The position numbers and the translations under genes are program-made. DNA of 64,000 nt from Spiroplasma gladiatoris (lineage in GTDB: Bacteria; Bacillota_I; Bacilli_A; Mycoplasmatales; Mycoplasmataceae): positions 62,001-126,000 of the forward strand of contig NZ_CP038013.1 of assembly GCF_004379335.1 (NCBI RefSeq), read 5' to 3'. This document shows positions 3,593-43,400 of this stretch, piece by piece. The notes under the pieces were generated by a model. The model was not told where the DNA came from, made no database searches, and saw only the letters and a list, made by a program, of their open reading frames with translations. Numbering within the stretch: the first letter of the stretch is position 1; each line of letters opens with the position of its first letter.

Positions 3593-5002
<1,410 letters not shown>

Positions 5003-5004
5003 TT

Positions 5005-5298
5005 ATGGAATTAAAATTAAAAGTAATAACTCCTAACGGCATATTTTTAAACTCAATAAAAGTAAGTCACGTTGGAGTTCAAACTACAGATGGAGATATG
5101 ACAATTTATGCACGTCATGCTGCTATTGTTTCAACTTTAAAAATTGGTCTTGTAAAATATACAGATGTGAAAGGGAATATTAAATATATTCATGTTCATA
5201 GAGGAATTTTACAAGTTCATAATAACGAAGTTAAAGTTTTAACTCCTTGACTTTATGAAGTTGATGAAAAAGGTAAAAAACTGGGACCTAAAATTTAA
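5005..5298 (+). CDS. atpC: F1Fo ATP synthase subunit epsilon
   Basis: This 97-residue protein is the epsilon subunit, which couples rotation in F1 and can inhibit ATP hydrolysis. The beta-sandwich domain is recognisable from ITPNGIFLNSIKVSHVGVQT and the GDMTIYARHAAIVSTLKIG stretch. The TGA at 5248 is read as Trp, extending the protein to the TAA at 5298. It is shorter than the roughly 130 residues usual in bacteria: the C-terminal two-helix inhibitory domain is mostly absent. It is the last gene of the operon. Confidence 0.93.
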
Positions 5299-5310
5299 AA
5301 AAATAATTAA

Positions 5311-5346
5311 AAAAACTTATTTTGTTAAACAAAATAAGTTTTTTTA
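5311..5346 (+). terminator. Terminator of the ATP synthase operon
   Basis: An inverted repeat (AACTTATTTTG, short loop, CAAAATAAGTT) is followed by a run of T. It lies 12 bases after the atpC stop. Confidence 0.85.
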
Positions 5347-5462
5347 ATTTAAAGTTTTAGACAAGAAAATATTTAAATTAAATTAAAGCAACAAATATCT
5401 AAATTTAAACTAATTTTATAATATTAATAATAAGTTTTTTAACCAAAATAATTTTAATAAAT

Positions 5463-5492
5463 AAAAACTCTGCTTTAAAAAAGTAGAGTTCT
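5463..5492 (-). terminator. Terminator of the minus-strand lipoprotein gene
   Basis: A hairpin with arms AACTCTGCTT and AAGTAGAGTT (one G-T pair) and A/T-rich flanks lies just past the stop of the gene at 5502-6134 on the minus strand. Confidence 0.6.
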
Positions 5493-5501
5493 GAATTTTA
5501 A

Positions 5502-6134
5502 TTATGATAAATAAATTTTATTACTATAAACTTTTTCAATATAATGTTTTTCATCTTTTTTTACTTTTCCACCATTATAAAAACCTAAAACCAATTTATA
5601 AGTATTAAATGTAAAGAAGTTATCTCCCTCATTACCCTTTATGGTTAATATATATGATGTAGTTAAATAGTAATCACCTTTATCTTCTTTAATTCATTTA
5701 AGTGAATTCAATTCAACAAAAATATCTTTTAATGTAGAATATGGATATTCGCCATAATTACTCCCAATAGTTATTATTCTTCCTTCAAATACACCTAAAT
5801 TATAATCTTCATTATAAAGACCGTTCACATCAATATTTTTACTAGTATCAGTATCTCCGTATTTTTTTTTCAATTTTCCATTTTCAAGTGATAATGGTAT
5901 TTCATTCTCATAAACAACTTTATCATTTTCTAATTTATTAAAATTAATCAATCAAAATTCATCATCACTCATAAAATTATTTACAAGATCTGTATCTGAT
6001 TTTCCCTCTTTATATTGAAGACTTGGTAATTTATTTTCTTCTTTTTCAGCTGGTGTATTATCACATGCCATAACTGAAGATGAAGCACTAAAAATCGTTG
6101 TTAAAGATAATATACTTAATATTAGTTTTTTCAT
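5502..6134 (-). CDS. Predicted lipoprotein, unknown function
   Basis: A 210-residue lipoprotein. The start at 6134 is preceded by AAGGAGAT. The leader MKKLILSILSLTTIFSASSS continues to VMAC, placing the lipobox cysteine at about residue 24. The mature protein is polar and charged with no membrane segment. Two TGA codons (plus-strand TCA at 5952 and 5694) are read as Trp; without them it would appear as two pieces. I recognise no domain. A region near the C-terminus (YSTLKDIFVELNSLK, then a YILTIKGNEGDN stretch) resembles a decayed open frame at 7732-8052, so it may belong to a small local lipoprotein family. It sits alone on the minus strand, convergent with the ATP synthase operon. Confidence 0.8.
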
Positions 6135-6275
6135 TTATTCAATCTCCTTATATTAATAAAATATGTAAAATTAATTACACTTATATAGTAGTTTATTTAA
6201 AAATTAATCAATTTTATGAAAGTAAAAATTATTAAATAAAAAATTAAAAGGTTGTTATTTAAAAAAAGATTATTA

Positions 6276-6380
6276 TATAAAAAACTATTAATTATTTTAG
6301 TAGCGATTAGGATGCTTGCTTTAACAAGGACAGTTTCCTCAAATGTTGTATCATGTCAAAACAGAAATAGAAAAAATTAA
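6276..6380 (+). pseudogene. Remnant of a lipoprotein signal peptide
   Basis: Read from 6276, the frame gives KKLLIILVAIRMLALTRT then VSSNVVSCQ and stops at 6378-6380. It closely parallels the leader of the intact lipoprotein at 10869 (KKLLSLLGAMGMLASTGA ... VVSCK). The expected start codon is TAT, there is no convincing ribosome-binding site, and the frame ends about ten residues after the cysteine. The simplest reading is the decayed 5' end of a relative of the 10869 gene. The downstream 300 bases give no frame I can join to it. Confidence 0.5.
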
Positions 6381-6701
6381 GTTAGGCCCAAAAATATACA
6401 ATAAAACTAGTTACATTGTCTAAGAAAAAAATATTAAAGAGAAAATTATTGTAAATGATTACAAAAATATCGAGGAACAAACCTAAACATTAAAGAAACA
6501 TATTTATATATTTGAAGCAAATATTACCTAGAACTTAATCAAACTGTGAGAAAGATTATAAAAAGCAAAATTTTATTTTAAAAAAGTTTTGAGAAAATGA
6601 AAAAAAGTTTATATAAAAGCATAATATATTAAACAAATTAAATATAGAATAAGTTTTTTGTTAATTTTTACTTTTTAATTTTATTAAAGAGGAAGTTTGT
6701 T
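6381..6701. other. No gene seen
   Basis: This is very AT-rich sequence with stops in all frames. It may hold the rest of the decayed lipoprotein that starts at 6276, but no similarity is visible. A purine-rich AAAGAGGAAG at 6686-6695 is the ribosome-binding site of the following broken gene. Confidence 0.5.
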
Positions 6702-7760
6702 ATGGAAATTTTAATAAATAAAAAATTAAAAGATATTATTTTATACATTATTTTTTCGATTCTCTTCGAAAAGACTATAACGAAGTCTTGTTAATAATTG
6801 ATTTATAAAAAAAGCAAATCTAGGCTTAGAAGCTTATGTCAGGTATGATAAAAATAATAACATCAAAGCCTTTTTAATGATGCAAATTAAAAACGATGTT
6901 GAAAAGGATATTAATCTTATTCAAATCTACTTGAAATGCTTGAAAATATCTACATTTAAAATTGATAAATCTAGTAAGTCGCAAAGAATATCTGAAGCGA
7001 TTATCAATATAATTTTTATAATTATTCAAGAAAAAAATATTAGTGAGGCCTATATAACTTTGTACAAAAATAAACAAATTTTATTACACAGAATTTTAGA
7101 ATCATGAGGTTTTGTTGAAACAGGTCAAAAAAATCAAGAGGTTGTGATGACTAAATTTAATTACAAAAAAAATGAACGATGTTAAAAAAGATTATAAGTG
7201 ATATTTTTCAAATAATATATATAGTTCATACACTGAATCAAATTATTACTTAATTCCTTTAAAAAGTGATTATCACGATAAACCATTACCTGAAAATAAA
7301 TTACATAATTTAAATAATAAAGAAATATCTTATAACACATCATCAATAAGTATTAGCAAAACTTACATTAATAAAGTTAACTATGAGAAACTTCCTAAAC
7401 AAGGTGATTTTCTATTAGAGTATAGAATGGAGTGATGCATCAAATAAAAAATATCGTTCAGTAGTAACCGGTGTTGGTATAGTGGATAAAGTATATGGGG
7501 ACACTTCTATTGATATCGATGAATGATTAAAAAAAGTTGGAAATACATCTGTTTTTACAGAAAATGAATTAAAAGAAGAGTATAAAAAAGGTAGAAAACT
7601 TATAATAAAATTTTTTTATATATTTTCATTTGGAGAAGGAAAAAATATTACATTCAACTACTTATCAGAAAACAACATTTGACCTAAGAACTATTATTTA
7701 CTAGCACATCCAATAAAAGATAAAGAACTATATATTAAAAAAATTAGCAGTAAGCTTTGA
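6702..7760 (+). pseudogene. GNAT acetyltransferase with C-terminal domain, multiply frameshifted
   Basis: Stitching frames recovers a known architecture: an N-terminal GNAT-type acetyltransferase joined to a PUA-like C-terminal domain. The pieces in order are MEILINKKLKDIIL (frame of the ATG at 6702), FFDSLRKDYNE (about 6752), WFIKKANLGLEAYVRY through ILESWGFVETGQ to 7185, then YYLIPLKSDYHDKPLPEN from a new frame at about 7172, then SVVTGVGIVDKVYG and VGNTSVFTENELKEEYKKGR after a shift near 7425. At least four frameshifts are needed, so no full-length product is possible. From memory, intact relatives in Firmicutes have the same order of motifs (FFDSLKEDY, GFV.VG, IP..YHD.LFP, VGN+SVY). A C-terminal fragment could still be translated from an ATG at 7172. 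The 3' limit is approximate. Confidence 0.6.
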
Positions 7761-8052
7761 AGATATTTATATTGAACCATACTATTTAGATGGAGTTGAA
7801 ATTATAATTGGTCAGCATGAGGGTCGTGTAATATATAATTTTAATACATTAAAAAAATATTTTAACGAAGCTCTTAATTTAAAAGAAAAATGAGAAGGTA
7901 TTATTGGGTATATATTTTCTTTAAAAGGAAATAAAGTCGACTCAAAATTCACTTAGATGCTAATTAAATATAGTAGTGAAAATTACTATATTAATAAATC
8001 TATTACCTTTGTATATACAATTACACATAAAATAACTGTAGATATTGTCTAA
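7732..8052 (+). pseudogene. Fragment possibly related to the lipoprotein at 5502
   Basis: One frame encodes FEDIYIEPYYLDGVEIIIG and then a stretch ending YIFSLKGNKVDSKF, a stop at 7954-7956, and a further 31 codons in the same frame to 8052. The spacing of Y..TLK..F.E...LK followed by YI.S.KGN..D matches the C-terminal part of the minus-strand lipoprotein at 5502-6134. There is no start codon, signal peptide or ribosome-binding site. I infer a decayed paralogue; the similarity is by eye and weak. It overlaps the end of the broken acetyltransferase in another frame. Confidence 0.35.
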
Positions 8053-8189
8053 GGTGAAGAACTTAAAATAATAAAATGAACAATTTTAAAAAACTGAATT
8101 TATAATAATTTTAAATTTTTATAGCTCACAATTTGAAAATATATTTCAACTTTATATTGATAAAATAAAAAAGTTATGGAGGTATAAAA

Positions 8190-9749
8190 ATGAAAAAACT
8201 TTTAGTTATATTATCTTCGGTATTATTAATATCACAATCATCAATGATAACAGATTCATGTAAAAAAGCAAAAGATGGTGATAACATAACAACCAATGAT
8301 AATGATTCAAATATAAAAAAAATTAACGATCAAAATATATATGAAACTAAAACTAAAGTAGTTTTAGTTAAAATAAATAATGTTACATCTAACGCCAATT
8401 TAGAAGCATCTAGTAGTGATGAAAATAAGCTTTCTGTAATGATTGATAAAAATCATTCAAGCAAAGAAAAAGGTTATTTTGAACTACAATTAATAGGTAA
8501 ATTAGAAGGAACTAGTAAAGTTACTGTTAAATATGGAGAATTTTCAAGAACATTTAACGTAAATATTATTAAAGAAAAAGCTGACATTCCTCATAGTATT
8601 TTAGAAAATCAATTTAGTATAAAACAAAATATTAAAACACCATTTTCTGTAGATTTTTTAAACCCTGTTAAAGATTGTGATTATGAGGTTATTGCAGTAG
8701 ACGATCAAAAAGTAAATATAACTAAAGAATCAGGAAAAGATACAAATGGAAATGGAAGAGTTATTTTTGAAGCAACAGGACTTATGGTTGGAAAAACAAG
8801 ATTGATTATTAATTATGAAAACTCTCAAGTAATTAAAGAAATAAATATTGAAAAAGTAGAAGAGCAAACTAGTACAACCTCTTTTAAAGAAGTTGTTGAT
8901 GAAACAATGATAATAAATGAAACAATTAACAAAATTATTATTGTTAACAAAGCTATTGAAGGCAAAGTTTTAGAATTTAATAGCGAATCTTCAAATTTAG
9001 AAATTAAATTTAACGAAGAAAATCATGGTATTATTGAACAAAATGAAAATTATTGAGTCTATTTATTAAAAATAACTTCAAAAAACAATATTTCATCAAC
9101 AAATAAAGTTAATTTAAAATTTGATAATGTAGAAACTAACTTCAACGTTGATATAAAAGATACTCCTAAATTTAGTTCAGAGTCACCTGTTGAATTAGAA
9201 GCTAGTACAAAAGGATATAAAAAACTAGAAATAAAAGTTGATAATAGAATTAAATATGCAAATATAAAATTGTTAAACAAAAATAAAGAAAATTTAGATG
9301 CTTTTTTAATGTCAGATTATGATGCGGGAGAAAACTCTAAAATTGAATTAGTAGTTTATGGTCTAGTTGCTTCAACTAATAATAAAGTAGTTTTAAGTTA
9401 CTATAACGATACTATTAAAAGTGAAATATCTATTGATGTAAAAGAACCAGAAAAAAAAGAACCTGTAATTAGTGGTATTGATGAAAACTCTACTGTTGAA
9501 ATGGATAAAAATCAAAGCAGAGCAATGCTGTTTTATATAGACAATCCATTAAAAGAAGAAAGTCTTACTACAACATTTGACAATGAAAAATATAAAAATA
9601 AATTAAAAGTTGAAGTAAAAGGTTATAAAGGAGATCCATACTATCATGTGTTTGTTATCTCTGATAGTCAAACTATTTTAGAACCAATAGAAGTAGAATT
9701 AAATTATACAAATGCTAAACCTTTAAAATTTAAAGTTATAGTCAAATAA
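8190..9749 (+). CDS. Surface lipoprotein with about five Ig-like repeats
   Basis: A 519-residue lipoprotein with leader MKKLLVILSSVLLISQSSMI and lipobox ITDSC (cysteine at about residue 24), preceded by a GGAGG ribosome-binding site. The TGA at 9054 is read as Trp, joining two frames. After a short linker rich in D and N come about five units of 80-100 residues. Each ends in a beta-rich segment of the type SKVTVKYGEFSRTFNVNI, TRLIINYENSQ, NKVNLKFDN, NKVVLSYYNDT or IEVELNYTN. This pattern resembles bacterial Ig-like (BIG-type) domains and suggests a stalk or adhesin-like surface protein. That is inference from pattern; no binding site is visible. It is followed at once by a strong bidirectional terminator. 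Confidence 0.8.
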
Positions 9750-9783
9750 AAAAATATTTTGGTTAACCAAAATATTTTTTTAT
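9750..9783. terminator. Bidirectional terminator between convergent genes
   Basis: A near-perfect palindrome (AAATATTTTGGTT / AACCAAAATATTT) flanked by A and T runs. It serves the lipoprotein at 8190 and, on the other strand, the membrane protein whose stop lies at 9780-9782. Confidence 0.8.
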
Positions 9784-10529
9784 TTGACATTATTTTTTTT
9801 GTATAACTTTTTTTTATCTACATAATTTATCAAAAAATTTAGTGTTACACTTATCAATCATGTTGCAATATAAGTAGATATAATTCCAAATATATATAAA
9901 CCTCATCCTTTTGTATATGGGTTTAATTGTGGATATGGAAAAGCCATCAATGAGTTATTTTCTCAATCCTCAAAAAAATTAATAATCATAAAACTTCTAA
10001 AAATCATGTAAGTTGAGTAAATAAAAATAAATATTAAATTTAATCAGCTATATTTTTTAATATAAGTTTTATTATCTACAGTGTTTTTTTTGCATATAAA
10101 ATAAAATATTAGTATAATTGTTGGGGTTACAAAATGCTCCATTACAGCTTTTAAAATGTTATATCATGTTTCTACACTAGCAATTTCACCTAATCCTAAG
10201 TAATACGCTACAAATGCACTATTGTAAACTAACGATTCAACAAAACTTAATGTAGTAATTGTGGTTAAAAAGTTTCTTCTTGCTACTCAATCACCGATAA
10301 TATTGTGATCTAATTTAATTCAATTTAAAATTCCATAAACCATTGTAAACACAGAAACTCATATGGTTGCATACCTAAATTCATACATAACTGCTATATC
10401 AAAGTATGATGTTTTTTTACCTTCTAAAGTTTCTGGTCAAATTATTAAGCATATAATTTCAAACAATATTCCTAAAGGAGGCATAATTGATAATCATATG
10501 TAAAAAAACTTTTCTGTTTTTTTATTCAT
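9780..10529 (-). CDS. Multi-pass membrane protein, possibly DUF1600/Pr6Pr-like
   Basis: A 249-residue protein that only becomes one open frame when eight or more TGA codons are read as Trp. The start at 10529 is preceded by GAAGGGAAATT. It has about six hydrophobic segments, for example SIMPPLGILFEIICLIIW near residue 20, an ATIWVSVFTMVYGILNWI segment near 60, and a final YIFGIISTYIATWLISVTLN helix near 220. The tail is lysine-rich. The pattern of a W-rich N-terminus and a central loop with EHFVTPTIILIFYF resembles Mycoplasma membrane proteins grouped under DUF1600 (Pr6Pr-like), but I hold this only weakly. No enzymatic motif is seen. It stands alone between two lipoprotein genes on the opposite strand. 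Confidence 0.7.
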
Positions 10530-10821
10530 TTTTTATAATTTCCCTTCTAATAACTCAAACTCAAAAAAATTTTATAATAATTTAGAATACTTGATTAAAA
10601 GTATAATACTAGGTTTATATTTTTAAATTAACCCACTATTATAACTGGTATTTTGTAGGTTTTAATTAACTAAAAGTAAGAATAAAGTTATTTAACAAAC
10701 AAAAAGTACCAAATTTTGAACATTTAAATAAATTTTAGCACATAATAAGTGTAAAATTTTTTTATGTTTATAAAAATATTTTTAAGTTTTATTTTAATTT
10801 TTAAAAAATTTTCCTAAGGAA

Positions 10822-10827
10822 TATAAT
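10822..10827 (+). promoter_or_regulatory. Probable -10 box of the spiralin-like lipoprotein gene
   Basis: A perfect TATAAT lies 42 bases before the start codon and 5 bases before a leader hairpin. No good -35 hexamer is visible 16-18 bases upstream. Confidence 0.5.
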
Positions 10828-10832
10828 TACTT

Positions 10833-10848
10833 TAGGTAGAAATACCTA
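10833..10848 (+). promoter_or_regulatory. 5'-leader hairpin with GAAA tetraloop
   Basis: TAGGTA-GAAA-TACCTA forms a perfect six-pair hairpin, two bases before the AAGGAG ribosome-binding site. If the TATAAT at 10822 is used, the transcript would begin at or just before this hairpin. A terminal stem-loop of this kind is known in other bacteria to protect abundant mRNAs from decay; that role here is inference. An alternative pairing (CCTAA at 10813 with TTAGG at 10832) would compete only if transcription starts further upstream. Confidence 0.45.
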
Positions 10849-10868
10849 CGAAGGAGAAAAAAAATTAT

Positions 10869-11708
10869 ATGAAGAAATTATTAAGTTTATTAGGAGCAAT
10901 GGGGATGTTAGCATCAACTGGAGCAGTAGCTTCAACTGTTGTATCATGTAAAGCATCAACTGCTGATTTATCAACCATTAAAGGTGATGATTTAAAATTA
11001 AAACCAACTGCAAACACTGAAGCAGCTGCAAAAACAGCTGTAATTGCACAAATTAAAGCAAAATTAAGTAAAACAGTTGTTGAAAAAACAGATATTACTT
11101 TTAGTGATTATAAAGATGCAACATCTGCAGCAGCAGGATCAATCAAAGTTACTGCAGTATCATCAAGTAAAAATGTTAAAGGTAGTGCAACATTTTCATT
11201 AGCATTTTCTGAAGCACCAGCTAAAGCTGAATTGTCAACTGTAATTAAAGTAGTTGAATTAGGAGATATTACAATTGCAGCATCAGATGGAAAACCTACT
11301 GCAGATGAAATTTTAGTTGGTGTTAAAGCTAAAAATACAGAAGCAAAAGATTTAACAGTATCAGATTTTGCAGCATCAGAAATTACAACTAGTGGAGCTA
11401 CTCTTACTGGTGCAGGTGATAAATATCAAGGAACAGTTAAAGTAACTTTCTCAAAAAAAGCAGCATCTAAAGCTGAATTGTCAACTGTAATTAAAGTAGT
11501 TGAATTAGGAAATATTACAATTGCAGCATCAGATGGAAAACCTAATGCAGATGAAATTTTAGTTGGTGTTAAAGCTAAAAATACAGAAGCAAAAGATTTA
11601 ACAGTATCAGATTTTGCAGCATCAGAAATTACAACTAGTGGAGCTACTCTTACTGGTGCAGGTGATAAATATCAAGGAACAGTTAAAGTAACTTTCTCAA
11701 AAGGCTAG
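10869..11708 (+). CDS. Abundant-type surface lipoprotein with tandem repeat, spiralin-like
   Basis: A 279-residue lipoprotein. The leader MKKLLSLLGAMGMLASTGA ends in VVSC (cysteine at about residue 28), very like spiralin-type leaders of Entomoplasmatales. The composition is striking: rich in A, T, S, K and V with almost no aromatic residues, and codon use is strongly biased to GCA, ACA and AAA, suggesting high expression. After one diverged domain (to about residue 117) come two nearly identical 82-residue units starting KAELSTVIKVVELG. Strong ribosome-binding site AAGGAG. The second copy ends after FSKG, short of the full unit. The family assignment to spiralin-like proteins is a pattern judgement. 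Likely role: coat or adhesin-type surface antigen able to change length. Confidence 0.85.
   Translation: MKKLLSLLGAMGMLASTGAVASTVVSCKASTADLSTIKGDDLKLKPTANTEAAAKTAVIAQIKAKLSKTVVEKTDITFSDYKDATSAAAGSIKVTAVSSSKNVKGSATFSLAFSEAPAKAELSTVIKVVELGDITIAASDGKPTADEILVGVKAKNTEAKDLTVSDFAASEITTSGATLTGAGDKYQGTVKVTFSKKAASKAELSTVIKVVELGNITIAASDGKPNADEILVGVKAKNTEAKDLTVSDFAASEITTSGATLTGAGDKYQGTVKVTFSKG
11221..11705 (+). repeat. Two 246-bp tandem copies inside the lipoprotein gene
   Basis: Unit 1 is 11221-11466; unit 2 starts at 11467 and is cut short by the stop. Over the roughly 230 shared bases I see only two substitutions (GGAGAT to GGAAAT, giving D to N, and CCTACT to CCTAAT, giving T to N). The unit is an exact multiple of three, so copy-number change keeps the frame. 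Confidence 0.9.
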
Positions 11709-11741
11709 GATAATTGTTTAAATAATAACTTTATAATATTG

Positions 11742-11797
11742 AATAAATAAATAAAAAAATGTGTTATGTTAACATGTTTTTTTATTTATTTAAAATT
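11742..11797 (+). terminator. Terminator after the spiralin-like lipoprotein
   Basis: Long complementary arms (AAATAAATAAAAAAATGT and ACATGTTTTTTTATTTATTT) with a short loop containing GTTAAC, ending in T-rich DNA. Confidence 0.75.
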
Positions 11798-13228
11798 ATT
11801 AAGAGCGTATATGTATTAATATTAAAAATATTTTGTTGTTATTTCTATCTCTAATCTTGATTATTTATTTAACATAATTTTTAAAACCCCTTATATTAAT
11901 AAATTAGAAAATATAAATTATATTTTATATTTATTTAAATATAATAGTACTTTATTAATATTTACAACTTTAAGTTTTTTCTATATTTTATTATATTAGT
12001 TTTAATGACAATAATATAAATAAAATTTCTACTTAAACTTTTTGTATTTATTTTACTTATGGTTTATTTTCTTTATTAAATAAGCAAATTATACTTATAA
12101 TTAATCATTATTAAATATAGTTTCTAAGTATATATTACGTTAAAAAATATAAAGTTTTGCAAGAAGATTATTTATATAGCAAATTTAAAAATACATAAAT
12201 CAAGTATTCTACATATTAATACTAAAAATTAAATTACAAATAAACATTTTAATCAAAAATTATGTTATATATATAACATTTAATATTCAACATTTAAAAG
12301 AATGAACATTAATTAAGAGGTTTATAGTTACGAATCATTTATTTAAAAAAAATAAAAATAAAAATAGAACTAATGTAATGATTCAAAAAATTAAAAAGTG
12401 CAGAACTTTTAAAAAATTCAAAAATCTATTGAAGTGTTAAAGCAAAAAATGATATATTGCTATAAATAATAAATAAATATAAGAGTAAACATCCTGTTTA
12501 TTGCAGATGTAAGCAATTAATTATTACAACAAATAATTATTATATTTGATGTTATAAAAATAAACCAGAATAATAGTTAAATATAGATATGAGTCTAGTT
12601 TTTGAAATAAAATAAAATTTTTTAAAAAACATTTAGACTTTTGGTTTACATTAATACAAATATTTAAATTTTATTTACTTATTATAATAAAAAATGAATA
12701 GAGAATCAAAAGAAGTTAAAAATATAATACATACCCCAATAATGTTGATAGAAATTGTTCTTTATTTTAAAAAAATAAATTATAAGTTCTGATATTGCGT
12801 ATATACCTTTTAATAAAAAATTTTGCTAATTTAAGGGTATAAACTATTAAAAAGGATTGTTTTATATTTGAATATCATGTAAATTTAAAAAAACTTATAT
12901 TTTTATAGAAATATAAGAAAGTTTTTAATTTCATGACAAGAAATTTCTAAAAAACTTATTATACATCTGATAACTAATATCAATACACCTCTATATTTGT
13001 AAAAGATAAGCTAAAAAAATAATATTATAATATCATTATCAAAGCTTGGTGGTTCTATTGATAATGCAATTTATAGTTTTTATTTTTAAAATATGAGTGA
13101 AAAACAAACGAAAGAAAATCCTTTTAATAAATTAAAAACACGTCTAAAAGTCCTATATTAATTTTATACCTATAAAATAATAATTATTATGTAAAGTGGT
13201 TCACATCATACTCTGTATAGATTTTATT
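11798..13228. other. Gene-poor AT-rich region with decayed sequence
   Basis: I find no credible gene in this 1.4 kb. Short frames include one near 12470-12570 reading YKSKHPVYCRCKQL, then YYIWCYKNKPE, stop: a Cys-rich stretch that might be a relic of a zinc-binding protein. Another at 13093 reads MSEKQTKENPFNKLKTRL before stopping. Two orphan hairpins stand out: CTTATATTT/AAATATAAG at about 12896-12919, and CATTATCAA (13034-13042) with TTGATAATG (13058-13066) around a 15-base loop. The region looks like old decayed coding DNA rather than a functional element. Confidence 0.5.
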
Positions 13229-13234
13229 TAGGGT

Positions 13235-13268
13235 AAAAAAATACTTCAAACAATGAAGTATTTTTATA
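13235..13268 (-). terminator. Terminator of the exonuclease/YigZ operon
   Basis: Arms AAATACTTCA and TGAAGTATTT around a short loop, with A and T runs on both sides, about 45 bases past the stop of the minus-strand exonuclease gene. Confidence 0.75.
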
Positions 13269-13312
13269 AAAAACATAATATATACTTAACAATTTATATA
13301 AATAAAAGCTTA

Positions 13313-14287
13313 TTATTTTTCTTTATTATTTCTTATTATTTTTTCATCAATTTTGATTTCATCTTTTAAGCGAAGTTCCAAGCGTTTTTTTCTCTCTTCA
13401 AGTTGAATTTTAGCTTTTTGTTCAATTACTTTAGTAAATGCTCAAATCTTTTCCCTTTTTAAAAAACCCATAAATCTGATATAGTTAACCCTCAAAGGTT
13501 TAAAATTAACTCTACCTAAGTTAACATCTTTTAAAATTCTAGTAATTTTTTTATTTAATAAAACTTGTTCTTTGCAAGCTTCAAGTTTTGCACGATGTTC
13601 ACCGTTAAATTCATTTAAATTTTTAAAAATATTTTCTACACAACCATATTTTTCAATTAATTTTGTAGCTGTATTAAAATGCATTCCTTTAACACCTTTA
13701 ATATTATCTGAATGATCTCCTAATAAACTCTTCATATCAGGTATTTGTGCAGGTTTACAACCAAATTTTTCAAATACTTCTTCTGCTGTAACTACTTCTT
13801 TTTTAGTTTTTTTAGATTGTTGTGATATTACATTAACATCTTCAGAAATTAATTGATATGTATCTTTATCATTTGAAATAATATCCACTTTATAACCTAG
13901 TTTAACAGCTATTCTTGAAATAGTTCCCATAATATCATCACCTTCAAAAGTATCTTTTTCATATCAAGGGATATTTGCACTTGTTAAAAAATCTCTAACA
14001 ATCTGCATTTGAGGTACCAATTCTCCTGGTGTATCTTTTCGAGTTGCTTTATAAGCTGGATAAATTTGTTTTCTTCAACAATCTTTTCCTACATCAAAAG
14101 TTACAATTATTGTATGATACTCATTAGAATTGATCATTTCTTGAATTTTTGCAACAAAAACATAAACTGCATTTATTAAAATTCCATCTCTATTAATTGC
14201 TACTTTTTTTCTTTTTAACGATCCATAATATCCTTTATGCAAAAGATTATACCCATCAACTATTACTATTTTCTTTTTATCTTCCAT
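13313..14287 (-). CDS. Stand-alone 5'-3' exonuclease (PolA N-terminal domain type)
   Basis: A 324-residue protein equivalent to the flap/5'-3' exonuclease domain of DNA polymerase I, here without any polymerase. It would remove RNA primers and flaps during replication and repair. Visible motifs: IVIVDGYNLLHKGYYG near the start, the arginine-containing YPAYKATRKDTPGE near residue 75, the metal site FEGDDIMGT near 115, ISNDKDTYQLI near 135, and the helix-hairpin-helix region QIPDMKSLLGDHSDNIKGVKG near 180. TGA codons (plus TCA at 14075 and 13442, and one near 13965) are read as Trp. A lysine- and glutamate-rich tail of about 45 residues extends beyond the usual domain. It follows the YigZ gene by 13 bases with AAGGAAGGA as ribosome-binding site. 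Confidence 0.92.
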
Positions 14288-14300
14288 GTGTATTCCTTCC

Positions 14301-14903
14301 TTAAAAATAATCTTGTTTTAAAATATCTATAGAACAATACATATTTAAAACTTTTAAATCATCTATTTTATCAATTTTAAAAGTATAAATGACTTCATTT
14401 TCTTTAAAAAGTTTTTTTAAATCTTTTATTAATAAATTATTAAGATATAAATTAATCTTTTTAATATCAGAAATATTGAATTTTATTTTTACAAGATATA
14501 ATAGTTCTAATACTTTTGTTTTTATATATTTTAATAAATTAATAGCTCCTATACTATAAGCCTTTTGTAAACCACCAACTCCAAGTTTAATACCACCATA
14601 AAATCTAATGCAAAAAATTACAATATTTGTTAAATTATTTACTTTTATTAAGTTTAGCAAGGGTTCTCCCGCTGTTCCGTTTGGTTCGCCATCATTGTTA
14701 TAACCAAACCTAATATTATTATTTATTCCAAACTGAAAAGCTCAACAGTTATGTGTTGCATTACTTTGTTTATATTTTTTGATAAACTCTTCTAACTCGT
14801 TTTCATTGTGTATTTTTGCAATATAGGTGATAAATTTTGACTTTTTAATAGTTTTTTCAAAAATAAATATTTTATTTTCTAACAATATTTTTTGAATAGT
14901 CAT
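14301..14903 (-). CDS. YigZ/IMPACT family protein
   Basis: A 200-residue member of the UPF0029/IMPACT (YigZ, YvyE) family, thought to act in translation regulation. The diagnostic motif DGEPNGTAGEPLL is at about residue 70 and FYGGIKLGVGGLQKAYS at about residue 100. The C-terminal part fits the small second domain of the family. TGA at about 14744 is read as Trp. The start is the ATG at 14903; the downstream exonuclease gene follows after 13 bases, so the two form an operon. Confidence 0.92.
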
Positions 14904-15019
14904 ATATTCACCAAAATTATTTTACTCTCTTTTTTAGAAAAAAGAAAATATTATTATTTTGTCTAAAAAGGATTAATAAAATTTATTTTATAATCTAAAA
15001 AATTCTATTAATATTATTG

Positions 15020-15028
15020 TGTTAAAAT
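15020..15028 (+). promoter_or_regulatory. Probable extended -10 promoter of the GH85 locus
   Basis: TGTTAAAAT, an extended -10 (TG, one base, TAAAAT), lies 73 bases before the ATG at 15102. The same nine bases occur before secA, the second lgt and the glycosyltransferase gene. Confidence 0.4.
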
Positions 15029-15101
15029 TACAAAGATATGTAAATATCAAAAAAAAATAAAAAATAAAAAGAAAATAAAAAAAATTAATATAGGAGGAAA
15101 A

Positions 15102-15854
15102 ATGAAAAAGAAAATATTAGTGTGGTCGCTAATATTTAGTTTTTTTATTTTGGTTATTTCTAATTTTGCAAGTAATGCAAGTTTTTTTGCTAAAAAAGCT
15201 GATAAAAGTTTAGATAATCAAATCAGACAAAAACTAAGAATCGGTGAAAGTTGACCCGTTGAGAGTAAAGAATATTTATCAATATGAGAAAAAATGCATA
15301 GACAAGCAACAAAAGATCTAAATGATATAGTGCAAAAAATAAATAAAAGTTATATGGATAATTATTTAAATTTATTATTTTACTATATTGACAATCCATA
15401 TGTTTGTAATCAAGATTGCGACAACAGAGGTGTGCCTAATTTTGAAATTGAAAAAATTTACAAGGAAGCTTGTGAATCAGAAGATATTCAATTATATGCA
15501 GCACAACTTTTAAAGTCTATATACATTGAAGCAAGAATAAACAAAATAAAAGAAGTAAATTATGCATTAATTGATAATAATGAGTTCCAACCATTATGAA
15601 CTTTAAAATACTTTAATGCAATCATATATTATGAATCAATTAGAGAATGAAATGATAAGTTATGACAAATTGTAGGTTTTGCATTAGACATTAATTTTTA
15701 TACATTTGGAGCTTATGTAAATTCTTGAGAAGAAGGTCCAAGTGCGGAAGATGTTGAAAACTATCCTCCAGACATAAAAGTAAAAGTAAACCCTTTAATG
15801 TTAGAATTTATTGATGATTTATATAATTATGTATTTTTAAATAGAAATATATAA
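15102..15854 (+). CDS. Secreted or membrane-anchored protein of the GH85 locus, unknown function
   Basis: A 250-residue protein with an N-terminal hydrophobic segment (MKKKILVWSLIFSFFILVIS) and no lipobox cysteine, so it is either secreted or anchored by this helix. The mature part is acidic and aromatic, with many Trp encoded by TGA, and a CNQDCDNRG motif near residue 105 holding two close cysteines. I do not recognise a domain. GGAGG precedes the start. It is 11 bases upstream of the permease at 15866 and the first gene of the apparent operon with the endoglycosidase, so it may be an accessory part of that system. Confidence 0.8.
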
Positions 15855-15865
15855 CAAGGAGTGCT

Positions 15866-16720
15866 ATGAAATTTAAAACAAATATTAAAAGTTTTGGAAA
15901 AATATTTACTTTAATTTTTAAAAATATTTTTTTAAACTATAGAACTTATTTTTATACCTTTTTACTTTCGGCTGCTGTTTTTTCAATCTCTTTTGTAGTT
16001 TGATTCAGAAACGCAAATCAAGTAATAATGCCGCCATTTATAATTGCTATCGTTACAAGTTGTACATTTTTTTCATCAGCTTACATAGGTATTGTTGTTG
16101 TTGATTGAAAAAAAAGAAATTATTTAACTAAATTACAAATGGGTTCTATAAACAAAATCAATTTATTAATATCATTATTTTTAATTAATTTATTCATATC
16201 TTTTATTTGTATATTAATTAATATTGCTTTATATAACATATTTAATGCAGTAAATTTAGTAACAATTAATCACAAGGTTTTAAAAAATCTAGATGGATTA
16301 ATTTGATTTTTATATTCAACATTTACTATTTTACTAATACTGTTTTTAACAATTGTTAATCTATTACTTACATCAATTTCAAAAAAAGTACCACTTTCAA
16401 TATTTTTTATACTATTATTTTTGATTTTATCTGTAGGTTTGTCGGATGCAATTGTACAACCAAGTGTAACTAGTGAAAGTAAAGCGCTAATAATATTAGG
16501 ATACTTTAGTCCTGCAAAATACTTTGTATGATTTATTATGCTATTGACATCTTACACACTTTTTGATGTTTATGGTATAACACAAATTATTCCAGATTAT
16601 TTTTACGGTCAAACTTCTCCTTTTATTAATATTTTTCAAACTCTTTTACCAGCATTAGCATTTTTAATTGTTGTTGCTGTTGTATATAAATGAGTATTTA
16701 AATGGGGGTATAAAATATAA
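15866..16720 (+). CDS. ABC-2-type transporter permease subunit
   Basis: A 284-residue integral membrane protein with about six hydrophobic segments, for example FYTFLLSAAVFSISFVVW-like sequence near residue 35, LLISLFLINLFISFICILI near 105, and LPALAFLIVVAVVYKWVF at the end. The order (amphipathic start, paired helices, a FSPAKYF-like loop before the last pair) is typical of ABC-2 exporter permeases. Several TGA codons are read as Trp. The stop TAA overlaps the ATG of the GH85 gene by one base (TAATG), so translation of the two is probably coupled. A second permease follows GH85, and an ATPase lies on the opposite strand. Confidence 0.8.
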
Positions 16721-19413
16721 TGAAAAAGTTATTAAACAGTTTACTTTTAGTATCTGTTCCAGTCACTTTTGCAACTCAATTAATAGGTTGTAATTACACA
16801 AATAAACAAAATGAATTTTTAAGTGGGTTTAAAAACTTTGATTGAAAAAATTCAAAGGATGGAGAAGGTTATGAAGTTGATAGTTACTCAAGTGACTTTG
16901 AATTGGATGCTTCTAATGAAAATATTAAAGATCTAGGTAATATAAAACCTGATAACTATAACAGTTTTCTTGATTATGGGACATTTAACACTGGTTTTAA
17001 ATGATCAAAAGATATAGAAAAACAAGTTTCTACTGGTATACCTTTAAACAAAGGGTTTATGCCCAATGGAAATATGGCTTATGATTTTGGTATAGATACT
17101 CCTGCACAAGCTTATAGAAGATTAAATTCAATTTTAACGTTTGACCCAAGCGTTGATATGGACGCAAAATATAATAAATCTTATCAACCAATTAGAAAAA
17201 GAGATTACCCAGGTGTTAAATATTTAGAAAGCCAAGATGAAAGAATAAAATTTAATCTGCTTTCGTATAATACAAAAGGAGCCTCTACATTTAATAATTC
17301 AATTGTTGGTTCAAAAAACCCTTTTGAAATCACTCAATTAAATTGACAATATAACACTAATTTTGTAGGGTGATCTGGTTCATGATATGAAGGACCAATA
17401 ATTCCACCAGCAGCAGATAATATAGAATCAGCTCACAAAAGTGGAGCTAAAATATTTGGAAATATATTCTTAGATGGTTTTCATGGTTTAACAAAAGAGA
17501 TGTTGACTGACTTTTTGAAAAAAGATGAAAACGGAACCTTTTTAATTGTTGATAAACTAATTCAAATTGCTACATATATGGGATTTGATGGATGATATTT
17601 AAACAATGAAGCAAACGGAAACGATCCAAGTGGTACAGTAATAAATAATAATGATTTATTTGAAATAGTATCAGATTTCAACAAAAAAACTTTATTGTCT
17701 AAAGATGAAGCTACTAAAAATTTAGAAATAATTTATTACAAAAATAATGCAAATTTATATTATGATCAAGATACAAAAAAATATCATGATCAAGATATGG
17801 CCAGAATGGCAACATCAGCTTATAGTGATGGAAATAAAACTAAAATCACAGAAATGCAAGTTAATTTTGGAGTTGGTGCAGGAACATGAGATCAGTTCCT
17901 TAAAGATTATCCAAATTATACTTCTTCAAATGTTTATACAATAATAGATGCTGGTTACAACTCATTTATACACGGTACATTTGATTATAGATTCTTAGCC
18001 TATGCAAATGCTAAAGGAGACTTTGACAAAGATCACTATAGCAGTTTTTCAGGATTCTTTGATGGAGGTTCAGGAAAATTTGGTGAAGCTGTAGACAATA
18101 TCCTAGGAAAAGATGCAGATTACTCTAATCCAAGAACATCATTATTCAAAAATCAAGTTAACGCTTTATTTAATGACATAATTTATAGTGGAACAAATTT
18201 ATTTGTAAGTACAAAAGATAAAGGTTTTGCTGACTATAGCAAAATTAGAAAAAATTTAAAAGACTTCCCAAGCGAAACAATTGTTATTGATCCAAGAATT
18301 CATTGAGATAAAAAAGATTATAAGAAAAACCCAGATTTATTAAAATATATATATAATTACAATACTAAATCTGAAGATGTGTTAGGTTCTGGAAATGGTT
18401 ATAACACAACAAGCTTAGGTATAGGAAATTTAATAAGAGAAAAAACTGTATTTGTTGATGAAAATATAGATAACTCATATTTAACAACAAACTTTTCTAC
18501 AGGAAGTGGTATTAAATTCGTAGAAGATCAAAAAACTATTTTTAATAACTATCCATGACTAAACAGAAGGTTGACAGATGTATTGCCTACATACAAATGA
18601 AGAATATTTGACGTAAATGACTCTGATACTCCACTAAAAATTAATGAGTTTTCAGGTGGTTATGATTATGATGATGTATACAACAAAGGAAATTCTATAG
18701 TTATTGGAAATGGTTTTGACCAAGAAGGAAGAATTATTCCTGCAACTAATTGAGACTTAAGTAAAACTTATGGTTGAGATATTATGGGTACTAATATTAA
18801 AAAAGGTGATAAGAAATTATCATTTGTATATAAAGATGGACTATCAGAAAATTTATCCTCTGATGTTAAGTTCCGTTTAACTTTTGGAGATAAAAATCAA
18901 AAGTTAAATAATGTAGTTGAAAAAGAACCAAGCAGTGTAAAAGAACTGGCAGATGGCTGAAAAGAGATTACACTTGACTTATCAAATGCAAATTTAGCAA
19001 TTAATGAAGGAAATGTATTATCTATGGTAGGGTTAAACATTAAACCTAAGTATAAAGAATTTAAATTTAATGTTGGAGAATTAAAAATTGTAAGTAATAA
19101 TTACGTTGATAATTTTGATGTTACAAAATTTTCAATAACAAATCCAAAAGCTGAATATGTAATTTATAGAAAATATGATGATCAAATAAAAAATAGTATT
19201 AGATTTAACTGAGAGGTAAGCGATATTGATAGTGTTGATTATTTTGAAATATATTTATACAAAAACAACAAATGATATAGAGCTGGTGAGACTACTCAAG
19301 ACATGTATTATTTAAAAAATTTAGATGATGGTAACATCCAAATTGGAGTTAGACCTGTATTTAAATCTAATGGTAAGAAAGGAGAAATTTATAAATTTAA
19401 TGTAAATTTATAA
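16720..19413 (+). CDS. Family 85 endo-beta-N-acetylglucosaminidase lipoprotein
   Basis: An 897-residue lipoprotein: leader MKKLLNSLLLVSVPVTFATQ, lipobox LIGC with cysteine at residue 24. The catalytic module (about residues 80-500) carries the GH85 pattern: an aromatic stretch with IIPPAADNIESAHKSGAKI, then GNIFLDGF, then GFDGWYLNNEANG at residues 288-300. N295 and E297 fit the Asn/Glu pair used by GH85 enzymes such as Endo-A and Endo-M for substrate-assisted cleavage of the chitobiose core of N-glycans. The C-terminal 300 residues look like beta-sandwich, carbohydrate-binding and fibronectin-like domains. Many TGA codons are read as Trp. By inference the enzyme sits on the outer face of the membrane and trims host glycoproteins. 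It is coupled to the upstream permease. Confidence 0.88.
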
Positions 19414-19421
19414 AAAAAAAT

Positions 19422-20258
19422 ATGAACTTTCACAAATTAGACAAAGCTATTAGGTATATGTATAAAATTTCTATTAGATCATTTTATACTTACATATTTA
19501 TGTTTTTAATACCTATTTTATTAGAATTATTTATTTATTTTTACTTATTTAAAAAGAATATTATATCCGATAGAGTTATAGTTACAGGTCCGCTTATTTT
19601 CTTAGTTATTGTTGTAAATTCTTTATTTGTAACTAATATCGTTAGTACTTGAAGAGAAACAATTTTTATTAAACAAATTAAAAACTTTGGAATAAACAAT
19701 TTAACTTTTTTAGTATCTCTATTTATAGTTTATTTAACTTATTCATTAGTTTCGCTTATTGTTATTTCTTGTATATTATTAGGAATTGATACAACTTCAT
19801 ATGATAAAAAAGTTATAAACTTATTTAAAACAATGTTTTCTCAACCTTCAGTACTAATAATTTTTATAGGAATTATTCTAAATATTATTTTAATATTTTG
19901 TATATCTATATTAATTGCTGGATTTTTTAGAAATGTATATTTAATTAACTCATTATTTGCGCTAACTCTGCTATACATTATAATTACAGGAGACTATTTA
20001 ATTGATTATAGTTTCACTCAGAGTTTTGTTTACCAAGTATTCAGTTATTTAAATCCTCAAAAATATATAAATTGAATTTTTTATATATCTTACACAAATT
20101 CATTTAACGGTTCAGCTGAACTATATAAAATTCTTGATAATGTAGATAATTACTTTTCATTTAAAAATATATATGGACCATTATTTAGTTCGCTATTTAT
20201 TATACCAATAGGTGCAGTACTAACTTATATGAGTTTCAATATATCAGTAAAAAAATAA
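19422..20258 (+). CDS. ABC-2-type transporter permease subunit
   Basis: A 278-residue membrane protein with about six hydrophobic segments, including FMFLIPILLELFIYFYLF near residue 30, LIFLVIVVNSLFVTNIVS near 65 and an IIFIGIILNIILIFCISILIAG-type segment near 145. Like the permease at 15866 it has the shape of an ABC-2 exporter subunit, and the two may form a heterodimer. TGA at 19650 and 20073 are read as Trp. It begins 8 bases after the GH85 stop with no strong ribosome-binding site, suggesting coupling to GH85 translation. Confidence 0.8.
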
Positions 20259-20285
20259 AAAAGTCGTTCAAACGACTTTTTTATT
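20257..20285. terminator. Bidirectional terminator between permease and ATPase genes
   Basis: A compact perfect hairpin (AAAAGTCGTT, CAA, ACGACTTTT) with A and T tails, lying between convergent stops at 20258 and 20292. Confidence 0.9.
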
Positions 20286-20291
20286 TTGCTA

Positions 20292-20981
20292 TTATATAGC
20301 GTAATATTCCAATAATCTTTTTCTAAGACTTCCATATTTTTTTTGTATTTCTTTTATAGATATGTCTTCAAAAACTTCTCCGTCTTTTAATAATACAACT
20401 CTATCGCATAGATCTTCAACTTCTTCTGGGATATGAGAAACAATTAATAAAGTTAAATCATTATTTTTCTTATAATTTTTAAAAAAGTTAATTAATTTAA
20501 TTTGCATCTCTAGATCTAAACCGGTAATAAGTTCATCTAATATCAAAATTTGAGGATCGTTAATAACAGACAAAAAACAATTTGCTCTTTGTCTTTCACC
20601 TCCAGATAATGAATCTATTGGCTTTTTGATAAATTTATCTAAGTTAAAAGCATCAACTAAATCTAAAAATTCTTTACTTTTTAAATAACTTTTATTTTTA
20701 TAAAAAGTCACTAAATCTAAAATTTTAGTTCCTGGAGGTCAACTTCCATCTTGAAATTGCATACCCACTCTTACTTTTTCTTTATCATTATTTTCGTTAT
20801 TATGTTCAACAGTTCCACTTGTTGGTTTTAATAGTTTAGCAATAATTTCAACAAGAGTTGTTTTCCCACTACCATTAGATCCTAAAAAAGCTACAGCTTC
20901 TGAATTATTAATAGTTAAGTTTATATCTTTTAAAACTTGTTTTTTTCCATAAAATTTATTTATATCTTTTAGTAAAATCAT
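20292..20981 (-). CDS. ABC transporter ATPase subunit
   Basis: A 229-residue ABC ATPase. Walker A is GSNGSGKTT near residue 35, the Q-loop MQFQDGSW near 75, the signature LSGGERQR near 127, Walker B ILILDEL near 147, and the switch histidine is in LLIVSHIPEE near 183. A TGA (plus TCA at 20739) is read as Trp and joins the two halves. Size and motifs match ABC-2 exporter ATPases. It is convergent with the two permeases of the GH85 locus and separated from them only by a shared terminator, so it is the likely motor, although separately transcribed. A structured leader precedes its ribosome-binding site. Confidence 0.92.
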
Positions 20982-31974: not shown

Positions 31975-32907
31975 ATGAAAAAAGTAAAGCTAAGAACAAT
32001 TGTTGAAAAACTTAGTTTAGAAACTCTTTCTGGAGAAAATAACTTAGATAATATAATTCAAGTTTATGGCCTTAATAGAGCAGGGCTTGAATTAGCAGGA
32101 AATTTTGAAGAAGGCGAAAAAGCTCATCGCCTTATTTTAATGTCTACAAAAGAATATAGTTATATAATGAAATTTAGTGAAGAAGAAAGAAAAGAGCGTT
32201 ATGAAAACCTTTTAAGTGAACACATACCTGGAGTTATTATTACAAGCAAATTTCAAGATAAATTATTCTTAGAAGTTGGAAAACGACTAGAAATACCAAT
32301 TTTAAAAACACATGCAGAATCAACTAGTGATTTTACAAAAGATGTATTAGACTTATTAGATGATTATTTTGCACCAACAACAGAAATGCACGCCTCTTTT
32401 ATAAATATTTTTGGAAAAGGAACACTGTTAACTGGAGAATCAGGAATTGGTAAATCAGAACTTGCATTAGAACTTGTAAAATCAAATCACTTGTTTGTAG
32501 GAGATGATAGAATTGTTATTACAAAAAAAGCTGGTAACTTGTATGGAAAATGTCATCCAATTTTAAAAAACCTTGTTGAGGTTAGAGGAATTGGAATAAT
32601 TGATGTTGCAAAAACAAACGGGTATAAAGTTATTATGGAACAATCAACTGTAGATTTAATTATTGAACTTTCAATTTTTAAAAAAGACGGAGTTGATGAT
32701 TCAGAACGATTAGGTCATGATTTTAAAACTTTTGACATACTTGGCGTTAAAATCCCTTATATTAAAATCCCAGTATCTTCAGGGAGAAATATTCAAAACA
32801 TTGTTGAAACAGCAGTTTCTAAACTAAAAATTGCATTAAGTGGATTATACAAAGATGATTCAGATTTATTAACAGAAAGAATGCGTGAATTTTCAGATGA
32901 CGAATAA
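31975..32907 (+). CDS. hprK: HPr kinase/phosphorylase
   Basis: HPrK phosphorylates Ser-46 of the PTS carrier HPr in response to sugar intermediates and can remove that phosphate, so it tunes sugar uptake. The 310-residue protein is of standard size. The P-loop GESGIGKSELALELVKS is at about residue 153, and the family's second signature region, around LVEVRGIGIIDV, near residue 203. It fits with the PTS EIICB at 46808. The last 11 bases overlap the start of lgt, an arrangement also known from Firmicutes, which suggests translational coupling. Confidence 0.97.
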   Translation: MKKVKLRTIVEKLSLETLSGENNLDNIIQVYGLNRAGLELAGNFEEGEKAHRLILMSTKEYSYIMKFSEEERKERYENLLSEHIPGVIITSKFQDKLFLEVGKRLEIPILKTHAESTSDFTKDVLDLLDDYFAPTTEMHASFINIFGKGTLLTGESGIGKSELALELVKSNHLFVGDDRIVITKKAGNLYGKCHPILKNLVEVRGIGIIDVAKTNGYKVIMEQSTVDLIIELSIFKKDGVDDSERLGHDFKTFDILGVKIPYIKIPVSSGRNIQNIVETAVSKLKIALSGLYKDDSDLLTERMREFSDDE

Positions 32908-34279
32908 CTTACTAACTTATGAAAATCCTTTATGAAAAGCATGATCTAAAGGTACAGGACAAGGAGACAGTTTATCTTTCTTATACTCTACGTTTTTAAC
33001 AATTGGAGTTTTTGTAACTTTAATAGCATCTGTAATTATGTTAAGAATTAGAAAAATACCTTTAACAGAAGTTATGAATGCAACATACATAGTTATTATT
33101 GCAGGAGTATTAGGAGGTTCTATTTTTGGAAAACTTGGAACAGGAGTTCCTTTTTACAAGTTTTTTTATATTTGAGAAGCTGGAATGAGTTTTTTTGGAG
33201 CTTTTTTATGCGGGTTTGTTGGAGGATTTGTTTTTCTCTATAACAAAAAAGATAATAAAAAAGTTTCAATATGAGTTTATGCAGATTGTATTGTGCCAAA
33301 TGTTTTACTAGGACAAGCAATTGGAAGATGAGGAAATTTATTTAATCATGAAATTCTAGGAAGAACTACTTCTGTTGAAAAACTACAATGACTACCTTCA
33401 TGGATATGACAAAGATTGTTTTATTATGTTGACCCTTCTACTGGAAAAGAAACTTCTGAGCTTGTTTATAAAGAACCATTATTTATGTATGAAATGATTG
33501 CAACTTTAATAAGTTGATTTTTAATAGTTTTTGTAATTAACAATTTAGGGAAATGATTTAGCAAAAAACCTTGAAAACTAGATCCTCATGCATTTCCAGT
33601 AAAAAAAGCAGTTCGATATGATGAAATTAAAGTTATAGATACTTATATTGATATTAAATACAAACAAAAATTTATTAATGGTGAAGAATTATATAAAATG
33701 TCAAAACGTCAAGCTTGACTAAAAGCTTATTTTGCTTATCAAGCTGACTTAACAAAGTCAGATCAAGCACAAAAAATTATAGATGATCATACAAATATTT
33801 ACTTAAAAGCCTTAGATAAATTTAAAAACTTTAAAAATATATTTAAAGAAAATCAAAAAAAACTTCAAATAAAAATGAAAAACAACAAAATTACAAAAGA
33901 AGAATTTAAAATACAAATTAAAGATCTAAAAACCCAGTTCAAAGATGATACAAAAGATTTAAGAATAAAAAAATCAAGATTTAAATCGTTTTTAACTTTA
34001 GATAGTAAAAAACTTTACGAATTAAATAATCCTAATAATTATTTTGTAATTAATTGTGGAGTTGCAACATCAAGTTATATAATATTTTATGCAATTATTA
34101 GATTGGTATTAGACTCATTTAGAACTAGTTACGAACTTGCGTTTAAATGAAGTCCAGTATTTAATTATATGTCTATTGTTGGAATTTTAATTTTGGGAGT
34201 AATTTCATTAGTTATAGCTCAATTTATTGCTCCAAAAAAATGAAGAGAAGAGGGATGGTTATATGAAAAATCATATTAA
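32897..34279 (+). CDS. lgt: Prolipoprotein diacylglyceryl transferase, copy 1
   Basis: Lgt adds diacylglycerol to the lipobox cysteine of lipoprotein precursors. The 460-residue frame depends on about twenty TGA Trp codons. Motifs: FYIWEAGMSFFGAFLCGF near residue 92, the arginine/asparagine signature GQAIGRWGNLFNHEILG near 137, and a late MYEMIATL helix. After the core (about 235 residues) there is a long charged, coiled-coil-like insert, followed by two more membrane helices near the end. It overlaps hprK by 11 bases and trxB by 17. A second Lgt gene follows at 35253. Confidence 0.95.
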
Positions 34280-43300: not shown

Positions 43301-43400
43301 AATTAGTCATGGTTTAAGTTACTTACAAGAATATGACTTCTCAAAAGCATTTAATGGCCAATGAGATGAAAAAGTAAAAGTTCCAAATAAAAAAGCTTAA
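40386..43400 (+). CDS. Lipoprotein with two GH18 chitinase-like domains
   Basis: A 1004-residue lipoprotein (leader MKKLLVLLSSFLVTSQLTT, lipobox IVGC, cysteine at residue 24; GGAG upstream). After a Ser/Thr-rich spacer come two GH18-like barrels, about residues 175-560 and 630-990, joined by a Q, N, P, T-rich linker. The second has the catalytic DxDxE pattern: NIDFDIEG with D784, D786 and E788. The first has KFDFYFAAP at the same place (D291, Y293, A295), so its acid/base glutamate is gone. Matching C-terminal motifs (MAITPWIG ... VSMFYLT and GATPMIG ... LSMWSMN) support a duplication. Expected activity: hydrolysis of chitin or N-acetylglucosamine-containing glycans outside the cell, with the first module perhaps binding only. 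About twenty TGA codons are read as Trp. Confidence 0.88.

Follow-up and report, generated by a model that had tools for sequence, protein, structure and literature searches.

Surface-anchored GH85 endoglycosidases and their near-constant ABC-2 transporter partners in Spiroplasma and relatives: a candidate ATP-powered surface machine

Extracellular glycosidases normally need no ATP, and in NosDFY-type systems of the ABC-2 class of ATP-binding cassette (ABC) transporters, a permease and an ATPase are believed to work on an extracytoplasmic protein. In Streptococcus pneumoniae, the endoglycosidase EndoD releases glycans, which are imported by the transporter ABC(NG) (NgtS-NgtP1-NgtP2) (PMC5215778). 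In Mollicutes, the MIB-MIP system no longer protects after deletion or inactivation of the F1-like X0 ATPase dedicated to it, and its authors proposed, without full support, an ATP-driven opening and reset (PMC12994834). Here we analyzed a locus of Spiroplasma gladiatoris at positions 15102 to 20981 of a 64,000-nucleotide stretch (contig NZ_CP038013.1, positions 62,001 to 126,000; hereafter the window), in which the gene for a lipoprotein of glycoside hydrolase family 85 (GH85) is packed with genes for two ABC-2-type permeases, an ABC ATPase, and an anchored accessory protein. The genome (G000) is a single contig of 1.16 Mb in which TGA is read as tryptophan (genetic code 4), and the five open reading frames (ORFs) of the locus are intact under this code and interrupted under code 11. 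The features of the locus are as follows.

15102-15854, forward strand: U15, accessory protein of 250 amino acids (ORF call; 13-row alignment; no family match)
15866-16720, forward strand: P1, ABC-2-type permease of 284 amino acids (orthologues match PF01061)
16720-19413, forward strand: GH85 endo-beta-N-acetylglucosaminidase lipoprotein of 897 amino acids (Pfam PF03644; Endo-A profile match)
17602-17610, forward strand: codons for N295 and E297, which make up the catalytic N-x-E pair of GH85 (Endo-A alignment)
19422-20258, forward strand: P2, second ABC-2-type permease, of 278 amino acids (orthologues match ABC2_membrane and ABC2_membrane_3)
20252-20287, no strand: terminator-like bidirectional palindrome of the type AAAAGTCGTT-CAA-AACGACTTTT, common to P2 and the ATPase gene
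20292-20981, reverse strand: ABC ATPase of 229 amino acids (PF00005; intact motifs; type A ATPase clade, see below)

U15 and P1 are separated by 11 bases (15854 to 15866), P1 and GH85 overlap by 1 base (at 16720), and GH85 and P2 are separated by 8 bases (19413 to 19422), while P2 and the ATPase gene are convergent, with the perfect palindrome at 20252-20287 between them. These coordinates confirm the tight packing (overlaps or gaps of at most 11 bases) and the convergent ATPase gene behind one terminator that had been described in a first-pass annotation of the sequence. One terminator-like palindrome was found in the region against 1.2 expected by shuffling, and it is the position between convergent genes that supports its reading as a terminator.

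We surveyed 198 genomes of the order and fetched 57 loci (L numbers below) besides the window, which were annotated by profiles and assigned architecture labels from the profile matches. GH85 was present in 35 of the 198 genomes, from nine genera and two families, and in 53 of the 58 GH85 loci it adjoined one or two ABC-2 permease genes (P) and was accompanied by a cognate ATPase gene, in five architectures.

Type A: U15-ATPase-P1-GH85-P2 (n = 14, counting the window and a copy that is broken)
Type B: GH85-ATPase-P (n = 16)
Type B': ATPase-P-GH85 (n = 5)
Type C: ATPase-P-P-accessory-GH85 or accessory-ATPase-P-P-GH85 (n = 15)
Type D: accessory-ATPase-P-GH85-P (n = 3)

As the set recurs across genera, it is a real conserved unit beyond chance, for which, in the one-permease versions, three genes (GH85, ATPase, and permease) suffice. 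The first-pass annotation had also read the locus as a five-part unit and had asked whether its parts always occur together. The five genes are found on one strand, in the order U15-ATPase-P1-GH85-P2, in L033, L034, L036, L041, L054, L057, L059, and L061; across the order the association held in the 53 loci and failed in five, namely, two broken or decayed loci (L075 and L087) and three solo GH85 genes (L038, L051, and L052). None of 10 GH85 loci examined from other Bacilli had such an ABC-2 permease neighbor, and no relatives of the locus were found on the viral contigs scanned. A scan of genome contigs yielded one named relative, Spiroplasma poulsonii MSRO_BK, with a copy in pieces (L088, 8108-13762); fragmented or remnant type A loci were also seen in L135 (G056), L045 (G019), and L137 (G041), and such broken loci suggest that some lineages, a vertically transmitted endosymbiont of insects among them, have been losing the locus.

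The enzyme and its transporter have also diversified together. Pairwise distances among GH85 sequences correlate with those among their ATPases (r = 0.87; 0/2000 permutations), and for 30 paralogues in multicopy genomes the nearest ATPase came from the same genome in no case (0/30). In a tree of 72 ATPases there is one clade per architecture, with the two-permease types A and C joined at a support of 96/96; the GH85 tree recovers the same architecture groups, except that type B is interrupted (three changes) by solo or broken genes. The ATPase of the window is sister to that of L032 and nested in the type A clade, so that the convergent copy is the matching ATPase that it had initially been taken to be. 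In the reverse direction, the strongest matches to P1-type permeases are all linked to GH85. Permease and ATPase relatives without GH85, which the first-pass annotation had named as grounds for refuting the association, do exist: many genomes of the family, this one included (G000:C1:962738), carry a paralogue with one permease, a lower score, and an ATPase of its own. This counts against the association in a weak sense only, as these paralogues group apart; their ATPases form a separate group, with weak support (28/89) for a single clade. No ATPase of the unit was found paired with other permeases in related genomes. The GH85-free paralogue loci include L117 (G000:C1:955000-971000), from position 7015 on, and L118 to L140.

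The GH85 domain (residues 203 to 342) matches PF03644 with an E value of 8e-21 and 75.3 bits (cutoff, 22.2), and a profile of 11 orthologues matches Endo-A (PDB 3fha; E value, 1.4e-43), EndoD, and a pneumococcal GH85 enzyme in the PDB. N295 and E297 align with N171 and E173 of Endo-A and are invariant across the 11 orthologues, in agreement with the initial assignment of an intact catalytic pair, and N-x-E is retained in the full-length Mollicutes GH85 enzymes examined from all architectures. The N terminus carries a Sec signal (MKKLL...) and a lipobox, LIGC, with Cys24; among relatives an N-terminal anchor is kept, and its type alternates between lipobox and transmembrane segment. The enzyme is predicted to work at the cell surface, where it would cleave host N-glycoproteins in their chitobiose core.

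The two permeases are assigned to the ABC-2 type through family matches of their orthologues together with the number of predicted transmembrane segments (about six to eight in P1). PF01061 (ABC2_membrane) is matched by 1 of 14 P1 orthologues (best E value, 2.9e-5) and by 4 of 14 P2 orthologues (best E value, 1.6e-5), and P2 orthologues also match ABC2_membrane_3 (E value, 3.7e-4); the window copies of P1 and P2 have no Pfam match of their own, and a PDB sequence search with the P1 profile returned no match. A two-row structure prediction of P2 with its S. poulsonii relative gave a predicted local distance difference test (pLDDT) score of 42. The ATPase matches PF00005 (E value, 7e-26), and its Walker A motif, Q-loop, LSGGE signature, Walker B motif with the catalytic Glu, and H-loop are intact and conserved in the ATPase alignment. 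Most type A loci have the ATPase gene between U15 and P1; an ATPase gene is also in place in L079 and the type D loci. The subgroup to which the window belongs has it displaced: it follows P2 in convergent orientation in the window, L032, and L042 and in the same orientation in L067, and in G100 it lies 379 kb from the locus. As sister genomes hold the ATPase gene inside the operon, the convergent copy of the window belongs to the unit. A phage defense reading of the locus was rejected, as PADLOC matched the ATPase alone, as a generic kind.

The N terminus of U15 is a hydrophobic anchor that lacks a lipobox cysteine, and the remainder of the protein is predicted to lie outside the cell. It has no relative in Pfam or the PDB, profile searches included, and the structure predicted for it alone has a pLDDT of 39. 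Full-length or near-full-length U15 occurs in 14 genomes, at a type A locus in every one, with remnants in 2 more genomes; since it is never intact away from such a locus, the suggestion that it is the fifth part is well founded. All 15 strong matches to the type C accessory protein are likewise at type C loci, and each of the two-permease types A, C, and D has an anchored accessory protein of about 250 to 450 amino acids. In hhalign comparisons, U15 and the type C accessory scored 45.7 in their N-terminal part and, as an independent match, 36 in their C-terminal part (the highest shuffled score was 20.8), the type D accessory and U15 scored 47.4 (shuffled maximum, 23.8), and the type D and type C accessories scored 42.4 (shuffled maximum, 18.4). 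Since hhalign gives these pairs moderate probabilities (62-85%) and two of the alignments take in the signal region, we regard the three accessory families as likely homologous, but only remotely. The accessory retains its anchor while the kind of anchor alternates between lipobox and transmembrane segment. The one-permease types showed no such neighbor with the U15, type C, and type D profiles. That two permeases go with an accessory suggests that the latter docks on an asymmetric transporter.

The locus is preceded by yigZ and a 5'-3' exonuclease gene and followed by secA, uvrB, and uvrA (the last three named from sequence). A promoter scan was uninformative (66 found, 67 expected), and Rfam gave no match over 12 to 24 kb. 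Elsewhere in the window are a spiralin-domain lipoprotein gene (10869-11708), two prolipoprotein diacylglyceryl transferase (lgt) genes (32897-34279 and 35253-36617) flanking a thioredoxin-reductase-like gene, and the gene for a lipoprotein of 1,004 amino acids (40386-43400) with no Pfam match at an E value of 1e-5. In genome G168, the yigZ-secA interval (L052, G168:C1:88000-106000, 6869-15439) holds a solo GH85 gene (665 amino acids as called) and the gene for a 505-amino-acid lipoprotein, so that the same slot is occupied in the two genomes by two GH85 systems of different clades. A second solo GH85 lipoprotein gene of G168 (L051, G168:C1:164000-182000) lies in a cluster that looks catabolic for N-glycans, with two GH38 alpha-mannosidases, a MalK-type ATPase, an RpiR-like regulator, and no ABC-2 genes; it is flanked by genes for two similar-looking lipoproteins with no family assigned. 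One ATPase-permease pair lies between two GH85 lipoprotein genes (824 and 844 amino acids) in L063 (G088:C1:600001-620000, 4867-12209), and GH32 (levanase- or invertase-like) genes stand beside GH85-ABC loci in L032 (2926-4596; lipoprotein-like) and L035 (6043-7377).

The near-universal pairing of GH85 with a transporter of its own suggests an energy-powered surface machine over a simple scavenging enzyme. Building on the observed co-occurrence, co-diversification, and retained active-site and ATPase motifs, we tentatively propose as our preferred reading, short of calling it probable, that the five proteins form one membrane machine in which ATP hydrolysis powers the action or reset of the surface-anchored GH85 enzyme and does not serve glycan feeding, an idea drawn from analogy with MIB-MIP and its ATPase. 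P1 and P2 would form an ABC-2 heterodimer driven by the convergent ATPase, with the anchored GH85 enzyme facing outward together with the anchored accessory U15. Host N-glycoproteins would be cut by GH85 in their chitobiose core on the outside of the cell, and the energy of ATP would be passed across the membrane to GH85 and the accessory, releasing or resetting the bound glycoprotein; in the one-permease relatives, a permease homodimer could play an equal role and would need no accessory. Several points weigh against this proposal. ABC-2 systems mostly export a substrate, and the mechanical step is argued by analogy only, from a system whose own authors call their release model not fully supported (PMC12994834). 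In addition, the window encodes a type I phosphomannose isomerase (59143-59718), so some mannose use is possible, and since this gene is present and the mannosidase search covered GH38, GH92, and GH125, a nutritional role retains some probability.

The nutritional alternative in its specific form is that the ABC-2 module imports the oligosaccharide freed by GH85. A GH85 gene beside an ABC transporter mirrors the pneumococcal N-glycan system of EndoD and ABC(NG) (PMC5215778), and the phosphomannose isomerase is accompanied in the window by an RpiR-type regulator. However, no solute-binding protein was recognized in the locus, where U15 matches no family, and of the families searched in G000, none of GH38, GH92, GH125, and GH20 was found; among 20 genomes of the genus, GH38 occurs in 5, GH20 in 1, and GH92 and GH125 in none, versus GH85 in 18. 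Since, moreover, the catabolic-looking cluster of G168 has its GH85 gene without ABC-2, feeding on imported glycan is unlikely. To our knowledge, almost all members of the ABC-2 class export, which counts further against uptake.

In a second alternative, the module exports a lipid, glycan, or peptide and the anchored GH85 enzyme modifies this cargo or glycosylates it with host glycans. Polysaccharides, lipids, and peptides are common cargo of ABC-2 transporters, transglycosylation is a known activity of GH85 enzymes, and here the enzyme is fixed in the membrane beside an exporter, so we give this possibility slightly more room than uptake while still considering it improbable, because no recurrent biosynthetic or small cargo gene was seen adjoining the loci, whose varied genomic contexts have no further neighbor in common. 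We are more doubtful that the module inserts, extracts, or positions GH85 (and the accessory) with no role in catalysis. Such a role would fit an enzyme and transporter that are nearly inseparable and co-diversifying, with a pairing that stays constant while enzyme and accessory change from one kind of anchor to another; against it, the Sec signal and lipobox of GH85 are ordinary ones, like those of the other lipoproteins of this genome, which have no such partner, Lgt is encoded in the window, and solo GH85 lipoproteins exist (L038 and L051). Very improbable, finally, is an incidental operon of two unrelated functions on one transcript. Dense gene packing is found in genome-reduced bacteria and a GH85-free transporter paralogue exists, but across nine genera the pairing has survived a reshuffling of the genes into five architectures, and displaced ATPase genes (window, L032, L042, L067, and G100) have been retained, the four placed in the tree falling in the cognate clade.

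That GH85 is almost never inherited without ABC-2 would mean either a new kind of ABC-2 substrate or an ATP-powered action on host glycoproteins, in wall-less bacteria whose hosts are insects, ticks, and plants. It is possible, though we hold this broader view a little less firmly than the proposal of a powered enzyme itself, that the ABC-2 transporter of these loci carries no soluble substrate and instead powers an anchored endoglycosidase from inside, in a machine that has an accessory family exclusive to it and has diversified, within Spiroplasma and its relatives, into four or five architectures at least. Such a machine would account for several Spiroplasma gene families without assigned function, and the question is testable in culturable species. 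In the open-access literature (subscription papers were outside our scope), no paper was found on GH85 in Mollicutes or on a GH85/ABC-2 pairing, papers on S. mirum/eriocheiris and S. poulsonii mentioning the enzyme by annotation only, and none described the exact set, as the first-pass annotation had supposed. Apart from the accessory, every family is already known; what appears to be undescribed is their combination and the fact that it is nearly obligate.

Compared with known systems, the Mollicutes GH85 enzymes resemble Endo-A (PDB 3fha), EndoD (PDB 2w91), and other GH85 enzymes in the sequence of the catalytic domain and the N-x-E pair and differ from them in being membrane anchored, in having a near-obligate transporter, and in a conserved N-terminal region, TGVPLNKGFMPNGN, that precedes the catalytic domain. 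NosDFY-type systems have a different outside protein and function. In the EndoD/ABC(NG) system a GH85 enzyme is likewise functionally tied to a two-permease ABC transporter, but ABC(NG) is an importer with a solute-binding protein, is unlinked to endoD, and is accompanied by GH38, GH92, GH125, and GH20 genes (PMC5215778), whereas the window locus has ABC-2 permeases, tight linkage, and an anchored accessory, and neither a solute-binding protein nor those four families were found. None of the five proteins matched the families of MIB, MIP, or the seven-gene F-type ATPase cluster. The likeness to MIB-MIP and its F1-like X0 (Type 3) ATPase is that it, too, is a surface system of Mollicutes, which cuts antibodies, themselves host glycoproteins, and depends on a dedicated, co-occurring ATPase (PMC12994834); that system combines a protease with an F-type ATPase, whereas the window locus combines a glycosidase with an ABC-2 transporter.

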